A stretch of 64,000 nucleotides of DNA from NCBI RefSeq assembly GCF_001011115.1, contig NZ_CP008874.1, forward strand, positions 1 through 64,000, read 5' to 3'. The stretch comes from Halanaeroarchaeum sulfurireducens (GTDB lineage Archaea > Halobacteriota > Halobacteria > Halobacteriales > Halobacteriaceae). Each line of letters opens with the position of its first letter. The stretch's first letter is position 1. The notes beneath the pieces were generated by a model that was not told where the DNA came from, did no database searches, and was given only the letters and a program-made list of their open reading frames with translations. The translations under genes were made by a program, and so were the position numbers. Below are positions 10,287 to 23,315 of the stretch, piece by piece.

Positions 10287-10538
10287 ATGAGCAGTGAGGG
10301 CGTCGACTCCGAGAGCAAGGTGTCTGGGAACCAGGCTAACATTCCCGCACGAATCCGTCGCGAACTGGACATCGACGACGGGGACACGCTCCGCTGGCAC
10401 GTCGAGGAAGACGGCACCCTTCGCGTTCGGGTCGTCCAGCAACGCAGCGGCACGTTCAGCGAGTTCGATGGCTACGAGGGCCCCGAAGAGACCGACGTGA
10501 GAACAGAACACGATACGTGGGGCATCGACGAAAGATAG
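10287..10538 (+). CDS. vapB: AbrB/SpoVT-like antitoxin (VapB type)
   Basis: An 83-residue protein with an N-terminal AbrB swapped-hairpin DNA-binding domain: KVSGNQANIPARIRRELDID, then a DGDTLRWHVEEDGTL strand. The acidic C-terminal tail would bind and neutralise the toxin encoded immediately downstream. A TATA-like GGTTTACG lies ~27 bases before the ATG, so the message is likely leaderless and autoregulated by the antitoxin. Its stop codon directly abuts the toxin ATG. Confidence 0.85.
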   Translation: MSSEGVDSESKVSGNQANIPARIRRELDIDDGDTLRWHVEEDGTLRVRVVQQRSGTFSEFDGYEGPEETDVRTEHDTWGIDER

Positions 10539-10973
10539 ATGCCGAGAGCCCTTCTCGATACGACAGTTCTCTTCGCTGCAGCGTACCAACGTGACGGACT
10601 CCACGACGAAGCATTGCCTATCCTCCAGGGTATCGATCAGGGCGACCTGCCCGAGGGAATCGTTCTCGATTTCGTCCCCGCAGAGACGTTGAACGGAGTG
10701 ACGACCCACGCTGGCCACGAGGCCGCAGTCGACTTTCTCGATCACCTCGAAGAGAATTCCCGGTTTCACATCGCCTCCCTGACCGGGGATGCCATGGCCA
10801 CGGCGAAATCACTGTTTCGGCAGTACGAGCGGTTCTCGTTCGTCGACGCCTGCATCGTCGCGCACATGCAGGGCAAAGGATTTGGTCATCTCTACGCGTT
10901 CGACGACGACTTCGACGCCCTGACCGACGTGTACCGGCTCAACACCGCCACCAATCCATACCGGCCGGAGTGA
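10539..10973 (+). CDS. vapC: PIN-domain toxin (VapC type)
   Basis: A 144-residue PIN-domain ribonuclease. The first acidic residue is in LLDTTVLFAA (Asp7), a Glu lies in VPAETLNG, and the last acidic cluster is FVDACIVAH plus AFDDDFD. It follows the antitoxin with no spacer, the usual VapBC arrangement. VapC enzymes cleave tRNA or rRNA; this target is unknown. The pair lies between two IS1341-type ends. Confidence 0.85.
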   Translation: MPRALLDTTVLFAAAYQRDGLHDEALPILQGIDQGDLPEGIVLDFVPAETLNGVTTHAGHEAAVDFLDHLEENSRFHIASLTGDAMATAKSLFRQYERFSFVDACIVAHMQGKGFGHLYAFDDDFDALTDVYRLNTATNPYRPE

Positions 10974-10990: not shown

Positions 10991-11030
10991 TTGTTGACTT
11001 CCTCCCCGCGCTGAAGCGCGAGGATTCCTC
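10991..11030 (-). repeat. IS1341-type element right end
   Basis: GTTGACTTCCTCCCC followed by a hairpin (CGCGCT-GA-AGCGCG) and GAGGATTCCTCC. Read on the minus strand this is the usual 3' end of haloarchaeal tnpB elements, where the omega RNA scaffold is encoded. It follows the truncated transposase end at 11053. Confidence 0.65.
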
Positions 11031-11052
11031 CGTAGGTAATCCAGTCAGGCGA

Positions 11053-11253
11053 TTACCCCGGCTGTGAACTTGCGGGTTCGCTGACGCTGGGTTGGTCAGG
11101 CGACCACGAGTGTTCCCCAAACACGGCGGGTGTCCACTCGTGGTCATTCCACTGCCAGTACGCCCCATCCGTGGGTGATTGAATCGACAGAACCCCTCCC
11201 AGAAATCCCACCGCATTCGTTGCTGGTCTGAACTGTGAAGATTTTCCCCAAAT
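11053..11253 (-). pseudogene. C-terminal remnant of a transposase (probable TnpB)
   Basis: On the minus strand a frame of about 66 codons ends at TAA (11053-11055) after the segment SPTDGAYWQWNDHEWTPAVF. There is no start codon and it opens after an in-frame TGA. The stop lies 23 bases before an IS1341-type right end, the normal place for tnpB to finish. I therefore read it as a tnpB tail; the catalytic part is gone. Confidence 0.5.
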
Positions 11254-11447: not shown

Positions 11448-12104
11448 TCACAATTCTCGAAGCCGTTGCTGTATGCCTGAGATTGCTACTGTCGATACGT
11501 CCGTGGCTCTTTGTTCAGGGAGTAATTCCAGCCAACTCGAATTATCCAACCGGTCATGACGAGCGGCCCCGGCAATACAGTCTGCAGTTTGTATTCCCGC
11601 TCTGGACTTTGAGTCACCGTGTCGGTGGTCTATCGTTGGGACGCTTTCGCCCAACAATCGCTCCAAATTTTCCCAAGAAGGTCGAGACGCGAACTGATCA
11701 AAGTAGAACTTCGCATTTTGATTCTGCTGTTTCGAGCGAATGTCATCCAACAATACGGCGTACAATAGCGATTTCAGAAAGACGTCAGAGGAGGTGGGTA
11801 AACTGCCTTCGTTGAATAAGTGGTAGTGGCCATCCATGCCTATCAGTTCATCTCGTGATACAGTCGCGAAATTGAATATGAGATCTTCCTCCCGGTCAGA
11901 CAGACATTCCAACATCCTCCTCTTTGACGTATCCTTTAAGTGGCTCCACTTTGCTTCCTCGAGTATCGAATTTTTCCTAACGACTCTCTTTGGACACGCA
12001 CCGACGGCGAAGGGTGGGCCAGCAACGACCGCGATCGAGAACACCTCCTCTCTCCCGTGTAGGACGTTCCGAAGATTTCCGGAGGCGTCTCCGAAATATT
12101 GCAC
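11448..12104 (-). CDS. DUF3800-like protein
   Basis: A 218-residue protein with the two hallmarks of DUF3800: an N-terminal FGDASGN (Asp-rich first strand, usually DESG) and a C-terminal SRAGIQTADCIAGA helix. The family has an RNase H-like appearance and is often found near mobile elements and defence genes; its activity is not established. The start is uncertain: GTG at 12104 sits right before the conserved motif, and the frame stays open upstream through a run of ten G at 12147-12156. Confidence 0.6.
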   Translation of the reverse strand: MQYFGDASGNLRNVLHGREEVFSIAVVAGPPFAVGACPKRVVRKNSILEEAKWSHLKDTSKRRMLECLSDREEDLIFNFATVSRDELIGMDGHYHLFNEGSLPTSSDVFLKSLLYAVLLDDIRSKQQNQNAKFYFDQFASRPSWENLERLLGESVPTIDHRHGDSKSRAGIQTADCIAGAARHDRLDNSSWLELLPEQRATDVSTVAISGIQQRLREL

Positions 12105-12186: not shown

Positions 12187-12213
12187 GGGGGTTGGCATGC
12201 CTGGCACGGACCC
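12187..12213 (+). repeat. direct repeat, left boundary of accessory island
   Basis: GGGGTTGGCATGCCTGGCAC followed by GGACCC. It recurs at 19417-19442 in the same orientation with one mismatch in 26 bases, and both copies are followed a few bases later by AGCGC. The core GGCATGCC is itself palindromic. The copies bracket the AT-richer island. Confidence 0.8.
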
Positions 12214-12250
12214 TCCAGCGCTCTAATAGAGGGAGTGCCTCGGGCCGAGT

Positions 12251-12680
12251 ATGTCCAAAGCAGTCTTTCCGTATCCCGGTGGCAAGAGTCGATTCGCGTC
12301 CTGGATCCTCGAATACGTCCCCGAACACACGACGTTCGTCGAGGTGTTCGCCGTGCGATTCCGGGACGTGGTGTTAGAGAACTTGGGCCGGCCTGGAGGT
12401 CGTGAGCAAGTACGACTCGCCCGGGACCGTGTTCTATCTTGATCTTCCGTACGTGGGTAATGAAAACCGTCTACCTGATCGGGAGAATCGATCACGAGGC
12501 GGTCGTGGACACGCTACGGGATCTCGAGGGAAAGGCGATCTGCAGCTACGAGGAGTTGCCTGCCAATGTGGCGGGGTTGCACGTGGTGGAGCGAGATGGT
12601 GGGAAGCGGTTCATGGGGAACGGAAAGGCGGGCGAGCGAAGGAGGCGACTGAACGGTTGGTGATGGATTTCAACAAATAA
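12251..12680 (+). pseudogene. broken Dam-type (D12 class) adenine methyltransferase
   Basis: The first frame starts MSKAVFPYPGGKSRFASWIL, the N-terminal SAM-binding motif of D12-class N6-adenine methyltransferases. It then loses most of the middle of the gene. A second frame (12402) carries GTVFYLDLPYVGNE, the catalytic DPPY motif altered to DLPY. A third (12439) reads IDHEAVVDTLRDLEGKAICS, and the tail returns to frame 12402. At least two frameshifts and a large deletion make it inactive. It is GC-rich like the core genome. Confidence 0.75.
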
Positions 12681-12708
12681 TTCAGCACGTCCAACATTCC
12701 AGCGTCAA

Positions 12709-12912
12709 TTAATTCGAAAACAGGGCGTATATTACCCCAATGAGTGCCGCCAGAATTGGTGCCCAGATTGGCATCGCATTCACCCAAATAGAATCGGCCT
12801 GTGCCCTTGGAGCAATGAAAGCTAACGCTAGAAATATCCCCGCCAAGATGGCTAGTATCCCAGATCCGACCTCGAAACCATCGAGCTTTCGGCTCTGGTC
12901 CAGGGAGTTCAT
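12709..12912 (-). CDS. small two-helix membrane protein
   Basis: A 67-residue protein (start MNSLDQSRKLDGFE) with two hydrophobic segments, ~18-38 and ~48-66, separated by a short polar loop. I recognise no family. It lies in the AT-rich island, divergent from the 258-residue membrane protein. The alternating hydrophobic pattern and clean start suggest it is real. Confidence 0.5.
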   Translation of the reverse strand: MNSLDQSRKLDGFEVGSGILAILAGIFLALAFIAPRAQADSIWVNAMPIWAPILAALIGVIYALFSN

Positions 12913-12993
12913 ACAAAACAATCCCAAGGGCTTGATTATGAATTTATTGGAAGGGAAATTACATAAGGACTCCAGTAATTTACCTATTTATTG

Positions 12994-13767
12994 ATGTCTG
13001 CAAGCGATGCCCGGCGTGTGAATAATTCATCCTTTTTCGGCCTCTACGATTTTTTCAGTATGTTCATCCCCGGGACGACATTGATAATTGGCCTTCTCCC
13101 ATTTCTACCGCAGAGATTAGTACTGAAACCCTATGAATTGGCGTTCCTAGTCATTATATTGGGATATGTGGTTGGGAGAGGAGTCCATAGCGCTGCCGAG
13201 AGCGCGGATAATTTTTTGAACAATCCCAATCACCGAGATTTATTCATCTCCGCTCTTGGTAACGAGCATCCGAATTCCTCCGTTGGCGACCTTTTTGACT
13301 CATTTTACAATCGGGCAAAGGCTGATCTCCCAATCAACGGCGTTCCCGACGATCGGACTGAAGCCAGTGGTAGCCTCTTAGGTATCATGTACGTACATGC
13401 CCGTTCAAAATTGACGATGGATGGTTCTGGTCGAGCGAAGACATTTCAAGCCACCTTTGCGTTTTATCGAAGCATTCATTTTGTGATGGTTGCCTTGGCA
13501 GCGATTTACATTTTCTATTCAATAGTTCACTACTATGAATTGATCCCTGGCGGGTTAGATTTCATCACCTACATTGGTGGACTTGGTATCCCTCCACAGA
13601 TCATGGTAGGTGCCTCGGAATTCTTGGCGGGGATTAGTTTCTTCACCTTTCACGATGCGAAAGGAGATCATCGTCAATACTACATTCAGTATCTCATCCA
13701 AGAATATCTGATTGTGACCGAAAGTGAGGATGAGTATTCACCTCAGCAGGGCACCTTCGCTCGGTAG
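12994..13767 (+). CDS. multi-pass membrane protein of unknown function
   Basis: A 257-residue protein. An N-terminal FFGLYDFFSMFIPGTTLIIG leads into a first hydrophobic segment, followed by a second near 47-65. A polar domain (~70-155) precedes two more hydrophobic stretches (~160-185, ~200-220), and the tail is charged. Membrane proteins opening with a YDFF-xx-IPG motif are common beside restriction and defence genes, which fits the methyltransferase 50 bases downstream. Codon use is AT-richer than the flanks. No catalytic motif is seen. Confidence 0.65.
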   Translation: MSASDARRVNNSSFFGLYDFFSMFIPGTTLIIGLLPFLPQRLVLKPYELAFLVIILGYVVGRGVHSAAESADNFLNNPNHRDLFISALGNEHPNSSVGDLFDSFYNRAKADLPINGVPDDRTEASGSLLGIMYVHARSKLTMDGSGRAKTFQATFAFYRSIHFVMVALAAIYIFYSIVHYYELIPGGLDFITYIGGLGIPPQIMVGASEFLAGISFFTFHDAKGDHRQYYIQYLIQEYLIVTESEDEYSPQQGTFAR

Positions 13768-13816
13768 CCGCACGTATTCACAGCCTATTTAACTCGAGGT
13801 CCCTTGCAGAATTACA

Positions 13817-14809
13817 ATGGAACAAGCGGCTGATCTGGGAGACTATATTCCCGATAGCTGTCGAGATCTGCTCACGAAGGAGGCTAACGACCTTCGGTCC
13901 GATATCCCCGCATTGGCTCGAGACAAAAAGCGAATGGGTGAGGTAGACCAAGCGGTGAAATCGCTCCCATCCCACCACGAACTCTACCAGAGCGACGCTC
14001 GCGACCTTTCGATGATCGAGGATGAAAGCGTCCATCTCGCGGTCACCTCTCCACCCTATTTCGACATCAAGGACTACGAAAACGGAACCGGTGGCGAGGA
14101 CCAGCTGGGTGATCTGACGAACTACGAAAAGTTCAATCAGCAGATCGACAAGGTATGGAGCCAGGTCTACGACAAGCTCGTCCCAGGTGGCCGGCTGATC
14201 GTCGTGGTTGGCGACGTTCTCCGATCCCGTAGCGACTACGGCCGTCACCGGGTGCTCCCCCTTCATGCGACTATCCAGGAGCACTGTACCGATATCGGGT
14301 ACGACAATCTCGCTCCGATTATCTGGTACAAGATCGGCAACGCCTCACTCGAAGCAGGGGGTAACGCCCGATTCCTCGGGAAGCCCTACGAGCCGGGTGC
14401 GGTCATCAAAAACGACATCGAATACATCCTCCTCTTCCGCAAGCCCGGGGGGTATCGTTCGCCGTCGATCGAGGAGCGCATTCTGAGCGTGATCGAAGCC
14501 GACGAACACCAGAAGATGTTCCGGCAACTGTGGGACGACATCCAGGGCGAGCCGCAGATCGATCATCCGGCCCCGTACCCGGTTGCGTTGGCCCAGCGTC
14601 TCATCCGGATGTTCTCATTCGCACAGGACACCGTTTTGGACCCATTCGCCGGGACTGGGACCACTGCGGTCGCTGCCTCTCGAGTCGGTCGGAATTCCAT
14701 TTCCGTGGAGCTCGAGGAGAAATACGTCGACATCGCCGAAGAGCGGATTCAAGATGAGCGAGGAAAGCTCACCAACTACGAGAATCTGAGCGTCAATATC
14801 TCCCGGTAA
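13817..14809 (+). CDS. DNA methyltransferase (N4-cytosine/N6-adenine, beta class)
   Basis: A 330-residue site-specific DNA methylase. The catalytic motif TSPPY lies at residues 77-81 and the SAM-binding motif DPFAGTGTTA at ~275-284. This motif IV before motif I order, with SPPY, is typical of beta-class N4-cytosine or N6-adenine enzymes; SPPY leans to N4-cytosine. It probably protects host DNA as partner of the nuclease-like protein 79 bases downstream. The gene appears intact. Confidence 0.88.
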   Translation: MEQAADLGDYIPDSCRDLLTKEANDLRSDIPALARDKKRMGEVDQAVKSLPSHHELYQSDARDLSMIEDESVHLAVTSPPYFDIKDYENGTGGEDQLGDLTNYEKFNQQIDKVWSQVYDKLVPGGRLIVVVGDVLRSRSDYGRHRVLPLHATIQEHCTDIGYDNLAPIIWYKIGNASLEAGGNARFLGKPYEPGAVIKNDIEYILLFRKPGGYRSPSIEERILSVIEADEHQKMFRQLWDDIQGEPQIDHPAPYPVALAQRLIRMFSFAQDTVLDPFAGTGTTAVAASRVGRNSISVELEEKYVDIAEERIQDERGKLTNYENLSVNISR

Positions 14810-14888
14810 TTCGATCGTGGTTTTGGTAGCCTGAAATAGTAATCTCTATGCTAGATATTTTTCCGTCCCCTTTCTGTACAGGGATTTA

Positions 14889-15842
14889 ATGGACCATACC
14901 TACGGAGACGAGCGTATCGCCGAGTGGCTGTCTGAAAACCAGTACCATCCCCGGTCTCCGAAGCACGGGAGTGCCGCCTGCATGTTCTTTCTCGACGATC
15001 TGCTCCACGAAAGTGAGCGGTTTCAGGAGGCAGCGAAGAACGGTGATATCGTCTACCAGGAGGATTACACTGTCGGGTCCGGTGAGTCGCGCTGGAACAC
15101 TGATCTAGTTGTTGGGCCGCCGGAAGAGCCGATTCAGATGGAAATCGAGAACGATCGGACCATTGCTGAGGGGGAGCCCGAAGCGGTGTGGCTGGCCATT
15201 GACGCGAAATCAGTGATGACTGAACACGGGAAGGCTCGTCGCAATCGGCAGCGGGACATCAACAGTTTCGCGGATATCATGCACCGGCATCATCCCGGGG
15301 CGGTTACGGGTGGGCTTATCCTGGTGAACATTGCGGATCGGTTCCGGTCACCGCTTCGCGACGAGGGAGACGTGACGGAGCATGATCGGATCAAGTCGCT
15401 CGTCGAGGAGACGGTTGAGATCTTCCGGGACATCGACCGCGCGAAGGGGAAAGTCAGCCCGAATGTCGATGGTGTCGGTGTGACTGTTGTCGATCACACC
15501 AACTTGGAGGACGGAAGGTCAACGGAATTAGTCACCGAGCCACCGGCTCCGCAGTCCGGAGATGTCGTCGAGTATCACGAGTTTCTGGAGATCATCTTGG
15601 AGACGTTCGAAGAGCGGTGGCTAACTGGGGAAACACCTGACTTCGAATCGCTGTCTGAGAACGTCGACCTTCGGTCTGCGTTGGATCGGCAGATTGTCGA
15701 GTTGGCGGCTGTGGCGAATGAGGTTGGAGAGGGTGTGCAGGAGGATAATTTGGACGAGACGGTGTTGTCTCGGTTGCGGAACGAGCTCGAGGAGACTGAG
15801 GCAGTTGTTGAGCGGATTGCGGATGAGAATTTGTATAATTAG
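14889..15842 (+). CDS. putative restriction endonuclease (PD-(D/E)XK-like)
   Basis: A 317-residue protein encoded directly after a DNA methyltransferase. Asp72 in WNTDLVVG and the DAK triad (Asp105, Lys107) in LAIDAKSVM, on predicted beta strands about 33 residues apart, fit a PD-(D/E)XK nuclease core; the following KARRNRQRDINSF would be the trailing basic helix. The C-terminal ~100 residues are helical and acidic. I infer a type II restriction enzyme from motif and context; the family is not recognised with certainty. Confidence 0.6.
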   Translation: MDHTYGDERIAEWLSENQYHPRSPKHGSAACMFFLDDLLHESERFQEAAKNGDIVYQEDYTVGSGESRWNTDLVVGPPEEPIQMEIENDRTIAEGEPEAVWLAIDAKSVMTEHGKARRNRQRDINSFADIMHRHHPGAVTGGLILVNIADRFRSPLRDEGDVTEHDRIKSLVEETVEIFRDIDRAKGKVSPNVDGVGVTVVDHTNLEDGRSTELVTEPPAPQSGDVVEYHEFLEIILETFEERWLTGETPDFESLSENVDLRSALDRQIVELAAVANEVGEGVQEDNLDETVLSRLRNELEETEAVVERIADENLYN

Positions 15843-15900
15843 ATGTTTAACACATCATCTTTTGCCGGAATCAACTAATCTCATAATCGGATGTGAGGGA

Positions 15901-16515
15901 TTAGTTGCTACCCCAGTCGTCTGGGAGTGCTTCTTCTTGCTCCTGGTATCGTTTCCGGATAGTTACCTCTGTAACATCAGCAATCTCTGCTAAATCTTTT
16001 TGACGGACTTTTTCTTTTGTGTTCACTGACGCAAGATAAACTGCAGCAGCTGCAATGCCAGTTGGAGAACGCCCTGAGAATAGTCCCTGTTTGGCACAAT
16101 AATCAATAATCTCTTTTGCTTCGTCAGCTATACATTCCGAAAGGTGTGCTTGTTCGACGAAACGGTCTACGTATGGTTTAGGGTTGAAAGGTTCCAAATC
16201 GAGGCCGAGCTCGCTTTCAAGATACTTCGCAGTGCGGAGGAGGTACTTCCGTTCGTAGTCGGAGTAACGAGCAAAGTCATCAGGACTGCGGGGCACCCCT
16301 TCCTGTTTACAGCCGATATATAGCGCTGCTGCTACAACTTCTTCGACACCACGTCCCGGAAGCAATTCTTCTTGCCGCGCTCTTCGGAATATAGCGGTGG
16401 CGATCGTTCTTACTTCACGAGGCAGGTCTAGTTTATCAGCTAAATGATCGGCTTCATTTAACGCTCGCTTCAGGTATCGAACCCGGGTCTCTTCTTTAAG
16501 ATCGCGATCACTCAT
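15901..16515 (-). CDS. TFB-like protein lacking the zinc ribbon
   Basis: A 204-residue protein consisting of the two cyclin-like repeats of archaeal transcription factor B, ~15-100 and ~110-195. Recognisable segments are VEEVVAAALYIGCKQEGVPR and SPTGIAAAAVYLASV. The N-terminal CxxC zinc ribbon and B-finger, needed to recruit RNA polymerase and open DNA in normal TFB (about 300 residues), are absent. It is the last gene of an operon with the GHKL ATPase. It could act as a regulator that competes at TATA/BRE sites. Confidence 0.8.
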   Translation of the reverse strand: MSDRDLKEETRVRYLKRALNEADHLADKLDLPREVRTIATAIFRRARQEELLPGRGVEEVVAAALYIGCKQEGVPRSPDDFARYSDYERKYLLRTAKYLESELGLDLEPFNPKPYVDRFVEQAHLSECIADEAKEIIDYCAKQGLFSGRSPTGIAAAAVYLASVNTKEKVRQKDLAEIADVTEVTIRKRYQEQEEALPDDWGSN

Positions 16516-16523
16516 CCTCGATC

Positions 16524-17198
16524 CTAGTCCTCCGAAAGATCCTTACGTTCAATTATATCAGATACCTGCTCCACCGAAGCTACTGAGGGATCCTCACCAG
16601 CCATGATTAGAATTCGTTTCGCGCCTTGCGTAGCCTTGGCTACATTCAGCCCAGAGGTATGGCTTGAGCCAAGGTTATATAGGGCCACTATTACTGAGGG
16701 TAAGTCATAACTATCACATTTCAAGTATGCTCGATACTCGTATGTCCGGGGGATATTCCCATCTCCTAGACCTTTTTTCAACCTTTTGAAGATCGTCTTT
16801 GATTTTTTCATCCGCTTACTGACCGCCATTTCACGATAGAGTGCCCACGGGTATTCCGAATCATATCCTCCATCAGGGAACATCTGGTAGAAATTGTGAT
16901 ATAACTTGAGATCATAGCTTTGAGATACGTCAAGAGTGCTGTACTTGAGTAGCTCTCTTAGATCCTCGTTCTGGCCACCATCACTGTGTTCATCTACTAT
17001 TCTTCCAAAGTGCCAGAATTTATCCGGTCCACTATAAGTCTCTTCAGCGTCATGGAATGCAATTATTGCATCACCAAGTTCCTCAACTAATTCTCTCATC
17101 TCGGATTCAGGTTTGTCGATGTACTCCATTCCCCGAAATCCCACCTTCTTTTTTCCGCGAATTTCTCTTACTGTGATGTTGGGTTGATTATCGGGCAT
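16524..17198 (-). CDS. unknown protein in GHKL ATPase operon
   Basis: A 224-residue soluble protein I cannot assign. It is mainly helical, with a basic central part (KRMKKSKTIFKRLKKGLGDG, ~132-151) and a C-terminal helix VASVEQVSDIIERKDL. A middle segment (FWHFGRIVDEH ... YHNFYQMFPDG) faintly recalls DUF1016-type N-terminal domains of nuclease-associated proteins, but not strongly enough to name it. It starts 12 bases after the ATPase gene ends and stops 8 bases before the TFB-like gene, so the three are probably one message. Confidence 0.6.
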   Translation of the reverse strand: MPDNQPNITVREIRGKKKVGFRGMEYIDKPESEMRELVEELGDAIIAFHDAEETYSGPDKFWHFGRIVDEHSDGGQNEDLRELLKYSTLDVSQSYDLKLYHNFYQMFPDGGYDSEYPWALYREMAVSKRMKKSKTIFKRLKKGLGDGNIPRTYEYRAYLKCDSYDLPSVIVALYNLGSSHTSGLNVAKATQGAKRILIMAGEDPSVASVEQVSDIIERKDLSED

Positions 17199-17210
17199 TT
17201 TTGAATGCTT

Positions 17211-19265
17211 TTAGCTAAGGCTGTCGTAGGTTTGAGCGCTAAACTGTGATAGGTTTTCCATTAGTCGGCGGCGTACGAGGCCAGTGAACTTCTCGTCTAA
17301 TGGTTCCCCGTCATCGTCGTTATGATTTTGGAGTTCAGCTTCCAGTCGATCGAGCAGTAGATAGTTCATAACTGCTTCTTGTCCCCACCGCACCAATAAT
17401 GCCACTTGATTGTCAATTGAATTGCGTCCATCCAGTTTCTCGGCGTAACGGTATTCAGGATGAGACGGGTTGGCGAGCAGAAGGAATGCGTCATCCCCTT
17501 CCTGCAATTCGTGGCGAAATTTCTCATCATCGGGGTCTGGGAACAGTTCGATATCTTCGATAAACGTTCTTTTTGGTTTACCCGTCTCCTCCTCAATCGT
17601 TTCACCAACGAAGAAGTACGTGTTGGTCGTATCGACTTCCTCGCCCGTTTGACCTGCTGAGTGAAGTTTTGCTCGAAATACAAATTTTCCTTCCTCAGAA
17701 GATGGATCGAACTCCCAACCATCGGCTCCTCCCGAAGTGTCTCCCTCAGCGACGGAGATGTTACGTGGTTTTAGTTCTGTGGTTCCGCTCTCTCCTTCGA
17801 CTTCCCCCTCTACTTCGTAGTCAGTTTCACCAGTGCCCTCTGGGTTATCTACTAAAACTCGAATGTCTATCGTCTCACCAGCGTCGAAGGTGCGTTGCTT
17901 AGTCCGGCACTTAAGTACTGGCTCTGGTTCTCCATCTTTTTTAACTGGACCCTCACTCTCACCATTTCCGTCGTTCTCTTCATCGACATAGATGTCTTCC
18001 GCCCCACTTTCAGACTCCTCATCGACATTAGGGTTTTCTACTGGTAGTTGACTTTGTGTCGGACCATCGAGCTGGGTGTCACCTGGTTCCTCTTGATTAG
18101 ACGGATCGTCGTCTTCAATAGCAAATTCAAGATCGCTCGCGTCAGTTGAAACGCCGAAGGGGTTTTCTTCCCATTGGTTCGTGAGCGTATCTAATGCACT
18201 CTCGACGATCTCATCTCTTTGTGCGATATTTGTCGGGCCAGCATGAAACTCATCGCGTTCGATCTGCTCGAACTTTCCTTTGATCCCCGCTGGTAAGACA
18301 CCACCAACCCATCCTGTATGTGCGTTGTTCTCATACTTAGGACAGAGAACGGATGCATCACAGAATCCAAACATCTCATCTATATGTTTGATCCGTTGAG
18401 GGCGGTATTGTTTCACTCGCATATAGGTCTGGCCCATTTTATTGTGCCGTTTGCACATGGCCATGCCCTCGAAAGGGATATCTTGCCCTTCGTTTTTGTA
18501 GACCACGGCGTCCTTCAAAACCTTCTGCTCGCCCACATGTTCGAATTCAATATCTCCTTCCCACAAGACTTCGAATTCGCTAAGATCCACTGGCTCGACC
18601 TCCTCTGTGACTCCATCGATCGTCACAAGAACAGTAACATCGTCATGTTCCAGCATTCGCTGGAATCGGGCCTTCACATGTTCGTGGACCCTTTCTCGGT
18701 CGGATAGCTTTAGAATTACGTTAGATTTGCAGTCTTTTACCGCGACGCGTGTTCCCTGCTGAGTTAGACTGTCTATCTGGTTATAGGGGGCCTGTTCAGC
18801 ACCTCGAACGACGAGCCCACCGTGGAAACCACCATGTTTTGTTTCGGCATAAGTCTCCTGACCGAGACCGCTAATGACGTGAAAGCCTCGCCCATATGCG
18901 CCACCAGCACCTCCGCTCTGTTTCTCATCGCCAGGGGTATCAAGGCCCGTAAACTCATTCCGGAAAATTTTCTCCGGCATCCCCCCGGCATTATCTTTCC
19001 AGATATATTCTCGTCTATTAATATCTATAGTCAGTTCGATAATCAGTTTCTGATCTTCAGGTATGATTCCGCGGTCGAATCGATTCGTAGCCCATGCGTC
19101 GTAGGAGTTCTGAATACTTTCACCTAGAACACCCTTCCAATGATTCGCGTAGTCATTGACTACCCGCTGAAGGGTATTAGCGATATCTTGTGATATTGGT
19201 TCTTTATTTTGTTCAAATTCAGAGTCGTCAATTCTGCCGTCCCCGTCTCTTCCGTCAGAGACCAT
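17211..19265 (-). CDS. GHKL ATPase (Hsp90/MutL/MORC-like)
   Basis: A 684-residue protein. Its N-terminal ~200 residues carry the GHKL ATP-binding motifs: N box GESIQNSYDA (Glu49, Asn53), G1 box DNAGGM (91-96) and G2 loop GGAGGAYGRGF (118-128). After a transducer-like region comes an acidic low-complexity linker (~385-450), a beta-sandwich-like domain (~455-560) and a helical end. MORC-like GHKL ATPases are known to associate with restriction-modification loci, matching the neighbours here. A TATA box at 19291-19304 fits the ATG at 19265; an ATG at 19286 would precede the transcription start. First gene of a three-gene operon. Confidence 0.8.
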   Translation of the reverse strand: MVSDGRDGDGRIDDSEFEQNKEPISQDIANTLQRVVNDYANHWKGVLGESIQNSYDAWATNRFDRGIIPEDQKLIIELTIDINRREYIWKDNAGGMPEKIFRNEFTGLDTPGDEKQSGGAGGAYGRGFHVISGLGQETYAETKHGGFHGGLVVRGAEQAPYNQIDSLTQQGTRVAVKDCKSNVILKLSDRERVHEHVKARFQRMLEHDDVTVLVTIDGVTEEVEPVDLSEFEVLWEGDIEFEHVGEQKVLKDAVVYKNEGQDIPFEGMAMCKRHNKMGQTYMRVKQYRPQRIKHIDEMFGFCDASVLCPKYENNAHTGWVGGVLPAGIKGKFEQIERDEFHAGPTNIAQRDEIVESALDTLTNQWEENPFGVSTDASDLEFAIEDDDPSNQEEPGDTQLDGPTQSQLPVENPNVDEESESGAEDIYVDEENDGNGESEGPVKKDGEPEPVLKCRTKQRTFDAGETIDIRVLVDNPEGTGETDYEVEGEVEGESGTTELKPRNISVAEGDTSGGADGWEFDPSSEEGKFVFRAKLHSAGQTGEEVDTTNTYFFVGETIEEETGKPKRTFIEDIELFPDPDDEKFRHELQEGDDAFLLLANPSHPEYRYAEKLDGRNSIDNQVALLVRWGQEAVMNYLLLDRLEAELQNHNDDDGEPLDEKFTGLVRRRLMENLSQFSAQTYDSLS

Positions 19266-19290
19266 TGTATGTCTATAAACTACCATGTAG

Positions 19291-19304
19291 TTATAATATT
19301 TAAG
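19291..19304 (-). promoter_or_regulatory. TATA box of the GHKL operon
   Basis: The minus strand reads CTTAAATATTATAA. A start about 25 bases downstream (~19274) gives a near-leaderless message for the ATG at 19265. Confidence 0.6.
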
Positions 19305-19416
19305 GGCTGGGGTAAAATAGGAGTAGTTTTAAGTTATTCAGACACGCCAAAAATTGAAACGGTTTTCCTATTTTAAATCCAATCTATATATGATTAATGA
19401 CTGCCGAACATTTTGC

Positions 19417-19442
19417 GGGGTTGGCATGCCTGGCATGGACCC
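19417..19442 (+). repeat. direct repeat, right boundary of accessory island
   Basis: GGGGTTGGCATGCCTGGCAT followed by GGACCC: a near-identical copy of 12187-12213. The GC-poor DNA of the island ends within about 100 bases of it. Confidence 0.8.
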
Positions 19443-19545
19443 CATTAGCGCGATTTAACTGGACACCCTCGCTCGAGACATGGCGCACTGCCAGAAAACA
19501 ACCACCGCGAACAGAACACAATCAGTCATCGTCGGGATCGGGAAG

Positions 19546-21773: not shown

Positions 21774-21808
21774 CCCACCCTAAGCGCCTTCGGCGCTTTG
21801 AGGGTGGG
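21774..21808 (-). ncRNA. TnpB right-end hairpin / omega RNA scaffold
   Basis: A long stem closes at the tnpB 3' end. In IS605-family elements this region is transcribed as the 3' part of the omega RNA, whose guide lies just beyond the element end, here antisense to the ACR3 remnant. Folding is seen; RNA production is inferred from the family. Confidence 0.5.
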
Positions 21809-23033
21809 GCTTGTCCGTGAACTCGGCCTCGAACCCATCAGGGTAGGCGGTAAATCCGCGCTTCGGCTTCACCGTTCCAGACTTTAGGGCGAGCTGACTG
21901 TCGCCCGTCCGCCGAGACGACTGTCGGCCTCGACGGACGTACCGCATACCGATGTTCTTCGCCGCGTTATAGTCGGCGTTCGCTTCCGATCCGCATTTCA
22001 CGCATCGAAAGTCGTTGCGCGACGGGCGATTCTCGTCTGCCGTGAATCCACACTCAGAACACCGCTTCGACGTGTACGCCGACCCGACTTGCTTCACCGA
22101 GATCCCGACCGATTCGGCTTTGTACCCAACGTATTCGTAGAGCGTTCGGAACGCCCACTTGTGACCCCACGACGCGCCGGTACGGTCGCGGATATGAGTC
22201 AGGTTCTCGAACGCAATAATATCGCAATCGTAACGGAGTGCTTCGTCTATCAGCGCGTTCGACGCCCGGTGAAGCACGTCACGAACGTAGCGTAGTTCTC
22301 GGCCACTCGCCTGTTCGAGTGTCCGGTGGGCGCTTCGCGTGCCAGTCTGTTGGAGTTCGGCGCGTACCTTCTCGAACTCACGGAGGTTATGCGTCAACTC
22401 CCGCCCGCTGAAGAAGTAGGCGGTGCTGGTGACGGCGAGGTTTTCGATACCGAGGTCAACCCCGAGAACCGTTCCGTCCTCGGCGGTGTTCCGTTCGGTT
22501 TCGTTCTTGTATCGGCGGAAGCCGATATGCAAGAAGAACTCGCCGTTTCGGGCGGTGAGCGTGCTTTCCGTAACACTCCATTCCTCCGAGTCGAGGTACT
22601 GTCGCTGATAGCCATCATCGGCGTCGGGAAGGTCGAGCGGACACCGAACCCGACTCTCTGTTGTAGAGAGAGATACGGTGTCATCATCGAACACCGTCAT
22701 CGTCCGCGTATCGTACTTCACGGTCGGCGCGGTGAACGTCGGCTTGCTGACCTTCTTGCCTTTGGACCGGCGTTCGATACAGCCGGTGATGGCTTGCGCG
22801 GCTTGGTGGGTGGCGAGAATCGCGTGCTGACTGCCGAGGTCGGTGTCTTCGCGTACAGAATCGTAGGCGAGGGGTTGCACATCGCTCTTGGTGTTACACC
22901 GTCCCCACGCAAGATCTGTAGCGATTTGGCATCCCCGTTTCCACTCGGTGATGGTGTCTTCGAGCAGATCGCGTTGCTCGCCATCTACCGAGAGGTGGGT
23001 GATTGCCGTCCGACGCACGTAGTCGTCTGCCAC
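21780..23033 (-). CDS. tnpB: TnpB, RNA-guided RuvC-like nuclease
   Basis: A 417-residue protein starting from GTG at 23033. The split RuvC site is complete: [10 protein letters not shown] (Asp), [11 protein letters not shown] (Glu) and [11 protein letters not shown] (Asp). Between the last two lies a four-Cys zinc finger, CSECG ... CVKCG. TnpB proteins cut DNA guided by an RNA from the element's right end and are the ancestors of Cas12. All key residues are present, so it may be active. The frame is open upstream of the GTG, but that part matches element-end DNA. Confidence 0.9.
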
Positions 23034-23315
23034 ATATTCAATGTAGCTTAGCGGGTACTTATAGGATAGTGGTTGCGCCCTGCTTCGCAACGCGCTCCTC
23101 CCCTCCCTACTCGCTCACTTCGCTCGCTCCTTGAGGAAGGGGACTCCGCGCTACCGTTTAGTTGAAAAACCCTCCCTTTTAAACGATACCCTAATGCCCT
23201 CGGTGAGATGAATTGGGTTTTCTCACGTCTATGGTGTTACGTCTATCGTACTGGCGGACCCATGTGCCACCCCCTCGCATACCCTCATTGCTGGTGCTGG
23301 TGCAAGAAAATCGTT

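Follow-up and report, generated by a model that had tools for sequence, protein, structure and literature searches.

A GHKL ATPase module beside a predicted type II restriction–modification pair in a genomic island of Halanaeroarchaeum sulfurireducens

ATPases of the GHKL superfamily, among them MutL and the topoisomerases, work together with nucleases. Prokaryotic MORC-like ATPases have been predicted as parts of restriction–modification (R-M) systems since 2008, and both the association of the ATPases with R-M genes and the argument that MORCs act jointly with nucleases can be found in that study (PMC2292703). No biochemical study of an R-M-linked MORC-like ATPase was met in the literature searched. 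Similar parts are brought together in the HEF_HK/Response_reg_2 pair of bacteria (PMC8011034) and in the Shedu protein VcSduA, in which a GHKL ATPase is thought to control a PD-(D/E)XK nuclease (PMC12137116). In this study, we analysed a stretch of 64,000 nucleotides (nt) of Halanaeroarchaeum sulfurireducens (contig NZ_CP008874.1 of assembly GCF_001011115.1, positions 1 to 64,000), hereafter called the window, in which an island of 7.3 kb (12187-19443) carries R-M genes next to a GHKL ATPase. An earlier note on this DNA had listed a DNA methyltransferase, a PD-(D/E)XK-like protein, membrane proteins, a GHKL ATPase and a factor like transcription factor B (TFB), and had described GHKL/MORC-like ATPases as known companions of restriction systems. 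The gene content was borne out (the methyltransferase belongs to PF01555 and the factor to the TFIIB-type family PF00382), and the remark on companions agrees with the 2008 paper.

Two modules in one island

The island consists of two modules and is not one five-gene system. Module 1, the methyltransferase and the PD-(D/E)XK-type nuclease (13817-15842, + strand), lies downstream of a membrane protein gene on the same strand. Module 2 (15901-19286, - strand) is a convergent operon of the ATPase, a partner protein that we call UNK and a TFB core, and it ends 58 nt from the nuclease gene. The GC content at third codon positions (GC3) was 0.71 and 0.68 in the methyltransferase and the nuclease, respectively, and 0.40, 0.44 and 0.46 in the TFB core, UNK and the ATPase, respectively. 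Homologue searches covered 391 genomes. Nine close homologues of the nuclease were found, and a methyltransferase homologue was adjacent or within a few genes in 9/9; the ATPase, UNK and an island-type TFB were found in 0/9 of these loci (stretches up to about 19 kb). The separate distributions of the R-M pair and the ATPase operon, together with their GC3, rule out a single five-gene system. The earlier note had proposed a possible new defence system, with a five-gene neighbourhood to be looked for in other haloarchaea. Its relation to R-M holds, but its unity does not, for the R-M pair stands without the ATPase in nine other genomes, and the exact arrangement was not found elsewhere. A known PADLOC system as the identity of the island was also rejected, the matches being limited to type II methyltransferase models and weak ones.

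Judged from its genes, module 1 looks like an ordinary R-M pair of type II, with a function that is predicted. The methyltransferase has an N4/N6 domain with the beta-class order, TSPPY before DPFAGTG, and among solved structures 2zie is nearest to it (E 5.6e-94). The nuclease matched no Pfam family; D72 and D105-A-K107 were invariant across eight homologues. The better-scored part of its model runs helix-strand-strand-strand-helix-strand with D72 in strand 2 and D105 and K107 in strand 3, and by this strand order and placement it resembles PD-(D/E)XK enzymes. VIA-align gave partial likeness to BbvCI (Z 9.1, root-mean-square deviation 4.2, 170 residues), NucC and SgrAI. The D...DxK motif and the partial fold likeness of a weak model point to a putative type II restriction endonuclease. 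In another haloarchaeon, a protein with SRA and HNH_2 domains directly follows the same R-M pair (L043, 9651-10571) and is possibly a type IV companion.

The ATPase, 691 amino acids (aa) long, matched HATPase_c_3 at E 6e-5, below the Pfam cut-off, yet all four ATP motifs were present, and with its profile the best solved relatives were HSP90-type domains. The N-box, DNAGG, GxxGRG and GT motifs were present in 8/8 ATPases of this type, as was an ExxxH motif (ENNAH in the window) about 140 residues past the last GHKL motif, a position that would fit the S5 domain. ExxxH in the S5 domain is given as a mark of paraMORC2 in PMC2292703. The MORC-specific S5 motif GhXhhpXXRhl was found in 0/8, and its absence rules out MORC proper. 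By motifs rather than by alignment with named paraMORC2 proteins, we class the ATPase as paraMORC2-like.

UNK was modelled with a predicted local distance difference test (pLDDT) score of 85 as an N-terminal hairpin followed by helices. The model had no significant match in the PDB (Foldseek best E 0.74; VIA-align best Z 4.5), and it weakly suggests a winged-helix-like C-terminus. The UNK profile matched proteins of about 390 aa with an N-terminal HNH_2 nuclease in five other haloarchaea, and the reverse profile built from these proteins recovered most of the UNK family, not the members of the window and of locus L016 (archaeon Ods02) directly. This homology links the UNK domain to nuclease action. 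The haloarchaeal proteins that join HNH_2 to a UNK-type C-terminal domain (L097-L101, about 390 aa) are apparently stand-alone.

The TFB core matched PF00382 in two stretches (E 2.5e-40) and 1d3u (E 2.9e-35). No zinc ribbon was found in the TFB of the window or in that of L016; CxxC pairs are absent, and the open frame in the window, with only 213 codons, leaves no room for one. The helix that contacts the TFB-recognition element (BRE), VTEVTIR[KN]RYQEQ, is preserved in both. In the TFB tree, the two were sisters (97/95), both ribbonless, and the eleven full-length TFB rows of these two genomes all carry the ribbon. In TFB, RNA polymerase is recruited through the zinc ribbon, and it is the second cyclin repeat that recognises the BRE (PMC7289017), so the core alone should occupy promoters without firing. 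In view of these sequence features, we believe that the TFB core is most likely a promoter-occupying regulator of the locus, an archaeal counterpart of a controller protein. A perfect palindrome between a TATA-like box and the probable start of the ATPase gene, AACTACATGGTAGTT, is a possible operator, which its position suggests weakly; a different palindrome lies 5' of the ATPase of L017, and none was found in the remaining relatives.

Recurrence of the ATPase–UNK core and its partners

The ATPase search found 7 genomes, UNK alone found 3, and the UNK profile found the same 7 together with distant HNH proteins. A UNK profile built without L019-L021 still retrieved all three (E 1e-17 to 1e-21), which makes them true homologues. 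An eighth locus was found in Salinibaculum sp. KK48, and an order-wide draw gave no new UNK loci. The ATPase and UNK genes were adjacent in 8/8 haloarchaeal loci, and a DNA methyltransferase lay near the core in 7/8. A PF01555 methyltransferase was within 5 kb of the ATPase in 6/7 genomes, for which the chance is about 1e-11, assuming 2-3 PF01555 genes per genome. L019 and L020 are near-identical, which makes the effective number smaller; at least five genomes with PF01555 would still be about 3e-9. As to the co-occurrence that the earlier note had set as a check, the ATPase–UNK core recurs and the complete operon of module 2 was met once more, but the exact five-gene set was not found elsewhere.

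That second complete operon is in L016, where an XhoI-type nuclease and an Eco57I-type methyltransferase stand beside the module; all five genes, in the order ATPase, UNK, TFB, XhoI-type nuclease, methyltransferase, read in one direction and are separated by short gaps. The ATPases of the window and L016 are nearest relatives in the tree (support 95/98), while their R-M partners are unrelated; module 2 has thus been re-coupled. In L017, the core is accompanied by an MvaI/BcnI-type nuclease and a methyltransferase. The third slot of the operon holds a ribbon-helix-helix (RHH) protein in L017 and L018 (matched weakly in Pfam; its end is possibly a winged helix), and neither a TFB nor an RHH protein in L019-L021 and L054. 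The simplest reading of these sequences is that the third slot is the position of a DNA-binding regulator.

The ATPase of a same-family genome (G220) has a copy of 100% identity on the Salarchaeum japonicum plasmid NZ_CP085325.1. When plasmids were searched with tblastn for kin of the ATPase, only haloarchaeal and weak matches were obtained. The weak ones were not counted as relatives beyond the haloarchaea; they fell in a region of a phage-like protein, on a GHKL protein of another family next to a methyltransferase in Rhizobium, and on a different ATPase. A viral or phage origin of the ATPase was also rejected, because tblastn against IMG/VR gave no relatives and phages gave none that was convincing. 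Two neighbouring observations concern other GHKL proteins. On the same Salarchaeum plasmid (L020, 12930-15575), a second GHKL protein of 881 aa (HATPase_c_3 E 6.8e-14) has a C-terminal stretch like a D...ExK nuclease, lies near the ATPase–UNK–methyltransferase locus and looks like paraMORC3. On a Rhizobium leguminosarum plasmid (L119, 4959-9803), the genes after that of a short stand-alone GHKL protein encode an unknown protein, a SEC-C protein and a methyltransferase; the logic of this bacterial locus is similar, but the family is different.

Genomic setting of the island

The coordinates of the features are listed in Table 1. An AT-richer island between near-identical direct repeats, as described in the earlier note, was confirmed: the GC content is 0.502 against 0.621 across the window, and the two 26-nt repeats agree at 25/26 positions and differ in one base. 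Across the window, no other long-range pair of 26 nt has one mismatch or fewer, and the repeat has exactly two copies in the genome (2.2 Mb). In GC3 the island is a mosaic, with about 0.70 in the R-M pair and about 0.39-0.46 in the ATPase operon.

Table 1. Features of the island in the window
Feature	Position	Strand	Basis or remark
Left direct repeat	12188-12213	none	Repeat comparison; resembles sequence about 60 bp 5' of same-genus dam-type gene
Decayed D12/Dam-type methyltransferase fragment (pseudogene)	about 12251-12640	+	Broken frames relative to intact gene of G346
Small possible membrane protein, 72 aa	12709-12927	-	No family match
Membrane protein, 258 aa	12991-13767	+	49 nt 5' of methyltransferase gene; PADLOC: Csx27 weakly, E 1.4e-4
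DNA methyltransferase	13817-14809	+	PF01555 E 1.2e-37; TSPPY/DPFAGTG order; 2zie
PD-(D/E)XK-type putative restriction endonuclease	14889-15842	+	Invariant D72...D105-A-K107; no Pfam family
TFB core	15901-16515	-	Both cyclin repeats and the BRE-helix motif present; zinc ribbon and B-linker missing
UNK, 224 aa	16524-17198	-	Helical model; homologous to C-terminal domain of HNH_2 endonucleases
GHKL ATPase, paraMORC2-like	17211-19286	-	HATPase_c_3 and four ATP motifs; true start probably ATG at 19265
Perfect palindrome AACTACATGGTAGTT, arms of 6; candidate operator	19278-19292 (approximate to 2 nt)	none	Between TATA-like box and probable ATPase start
Right direct repeat	19417-19442	none	Second copy of left repeat

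The sole same-genus genome compared (G346) is collinear with the window up to a tRNA-Gln gene (window 10067), and the island lies in the variable region downstream of this gene. At the syntenic place, G346 has no island and a single 21/23 match to the island repeat about 60 bp 5' of a D12 (Dam-type) methyltransferase gene, which is uninterrupted there (194 aa; PF02086 E 1.6e-11; L117). From this comparison, the left repeat is native sequence and adjoins a dam gene, which in the window is now decayed, and the right repeat is its second copy; we do not take the left repeat for a free-standing att site. No integrase was recognised between the repeats. The 258-aa membrane protein as a conserved partner of the R-M pair was rejected, as no homologue of it was seen beside the pair in the nine other loci.

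Other mobile or defence-related features were noted nearby. A likely antitoxin/PIN-domain toxin pair adjoins the tRNA-Gln gene (10287-10973, + strand), and G346 has a different PIN gene in the same variable region. A 178-bp element resembling a miniature inverted-repeat transposable element lies at about 11000-11178; almost identical copies (up to 95%) occur at other places of the genome and also in relatives, and G128 has many. A DUF3800 protein (11448-12104, - strand; PF12686 E 3.7e-6) is encoded just outside the left repeat, and a 436-aa frame at 21780-23090 (- strand) resembles a TnpB-type transposon protein.

Possible working and likeness to known systems

With moderate confidence, we believe that module 2 serves type II restriction as an ATP-dependent accessory that can be transferred and coupled to different R-M systems; the TFB core would be its regulator, bound at a promoter. 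In such a system, the methyltransferase would mark host DNA and the nuclease would cut unmarked DNA. ATP-driven dimerisation of the paraMORC2-like ATPase would close a clamp on DNA, UNK might tie this clamp to DNA or to the nuclease, and the two proteins could make the restriction enzyme of the locus cut incoming DNA more strongly, or gate this cutting, while the TFB core would occupy a promoter and regulate the locus. We also considered that a ribbonless TFB on DNA bound by the TATA-binding protein (TBP) directs or switches on the clamp, so that foreign DNA would be recognised through its transcription start sites and passed to the neighbouring restriction enzyme, but this idea is improbable.

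Several results weigh against an accessory module for restriction. The nuclease model is weak overall (mean pLDDT 59.6), and Foldseek gave nothing significant for it, with nothing below E 0.02. In L018, L019-L020 and L021, a methyltransferase is present and no nuclease was recognised. An SF2 helicase, which many of the MORC operons in PMC2292703 contain, was not recognised among the neighbours scanned. The role of UNK is a guess, because the protein has no known fold, and the TFB, found in only 2/8 ATPase–UNK loci, is no core part. The Salinibaculum plasmid copy adjoins type I-D CRISPR genes, with no R-M gene recognised, and from it module 2 may be independent of any R-M gene. This last point belongs to a rival which we consider less probable: that module 2 is an independent defence system with its own sensor and effector, which merely shares defence hotspots with R-M genes. 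The place of the island in a variable region downstream of tRNA-Gln fits such a system, and the homology of UNK with HNH endonucleases hints at an effector. However, no catalytic domain was recognised in UNK or in the C-terminus of the ATPase, the linkage to a methyltransferase is tight in 6/7 genomes, and the single co-directional run of L016 joins the module to its R-M genes.

Controller proteins are a known component of type II R-M, and the third slot holds DNA-binding proteins of regulator type (a TFB core or RHH). Both facts would suit a module that is regulatory or protective, timing the R-M genes or shielding host DNA at establishment with little role in cutting. We find this rather unlikely, since a clamp-type ATPase of such size with a dedicated partner exceeds the needs of a regulator, and the R-M pair exists without module 2 in nine other genomes. 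If the TFB core were an effector instead of a regulator, it could be an alternative or dominant-negative initiation factor that silences invading promoters. The half that binds TBP and BRE is present in it, and the ribbon needed to recruit RNA polymerase is missing (PMC7289017), but it occurs in two loci only, another DNA-binding protein takes the slot in two more, and global blocking of promoters would be toxic unless gated; such an effector role is doubtful. The island is very unlikely to be a functionless remnant in decay: the dam gene at its left end is degraded, but both R-M genes and all three genes of the operon have full-length frames, with motifs intact where these are known.

The locus offers a natural comparison: the R-M pair has the module next to it in the window and lacks it in nine other haloarchaea, and the module in turn accompanies different R-M pairs. 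Within an operon of defence type, it presents a general transcription factor of which the promoter-binding half remains, and it points to a new domain common to UNK and HNH nucleases. These features matter for two questions: why R-M systems sometimes include a large ATPase as a helper, and how R-M genes are regulated in archaea.

Among the described systems, the paraMORC2 proteins (Iyer, Abhiman and Aravind, 2008; PMC2292703) share with our ATPase the N-terminal GHKL motifs and the ExxxH downstream of the GHKL domain, and both are sporadic and associated with DNA methyltransferases and restriction nucleases. The text consulted of that paper does not mention a dedicated helical partner such as UNK, or a TFB or RHH protein; the SF2 helicase, not recognised among the haloarchaeal neighbours scanned, is frequent in its MORC operons. 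The HEF_HK/Response_reg_2 systems (PMC8011034) likewise set a paraMORC-type ATPase and a small partner beside type II R-M genes, including MvaI_BcnI and HNH_2. That study covers bacteria, and its partner is receiver-like, whereas UNK is predicted to be helical. PF19191 (HEF_HK) had no match at E up to 0.1 in the window ATPase and at E up to 1 in four relatives, nor did UNK match PF19192 (receiver-like) in Pfam; we rejected this identity on the missing domain matches and the predicted fold of the partner. In VcSduA (PMC12137116), ATPase and nuclease are fused in one protein, while they are separate genes in the island, and DUF4263, the Shedu nuclease domain, had no Pfam or PADLOC match in the island ATPase or nuclease. 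Type II R-M systems likewise have a methyltransferase next to a PD-(D/E)XK nuclease; in the island, the methyltransferase and the putative nuclease are neighbours and are conserved together, but this nuclease matches no Pfam family. The island TFB shares two cyclin repeats and the BRE-contacting helix with archaeal TFB; it differs in lacking the zinc ribbon, reader and linker and in being the third gene of a defence-type operon. The pairing of a GHKL ATPase with TFB is not mentioned in the literature found, including surveys of archaeal R-M and immunity (PMC10609329, PMC6471742, PMC12988326), in keeping with the earlier note, to which no described system with a TFB-like protein was known. Compared with these systems, two things are new here: a helical partner that has its homologue in the C-terminal domain of HNH_2 endonucleases, and a third slot that holds a TFB without its ribbon or an RHH protein.

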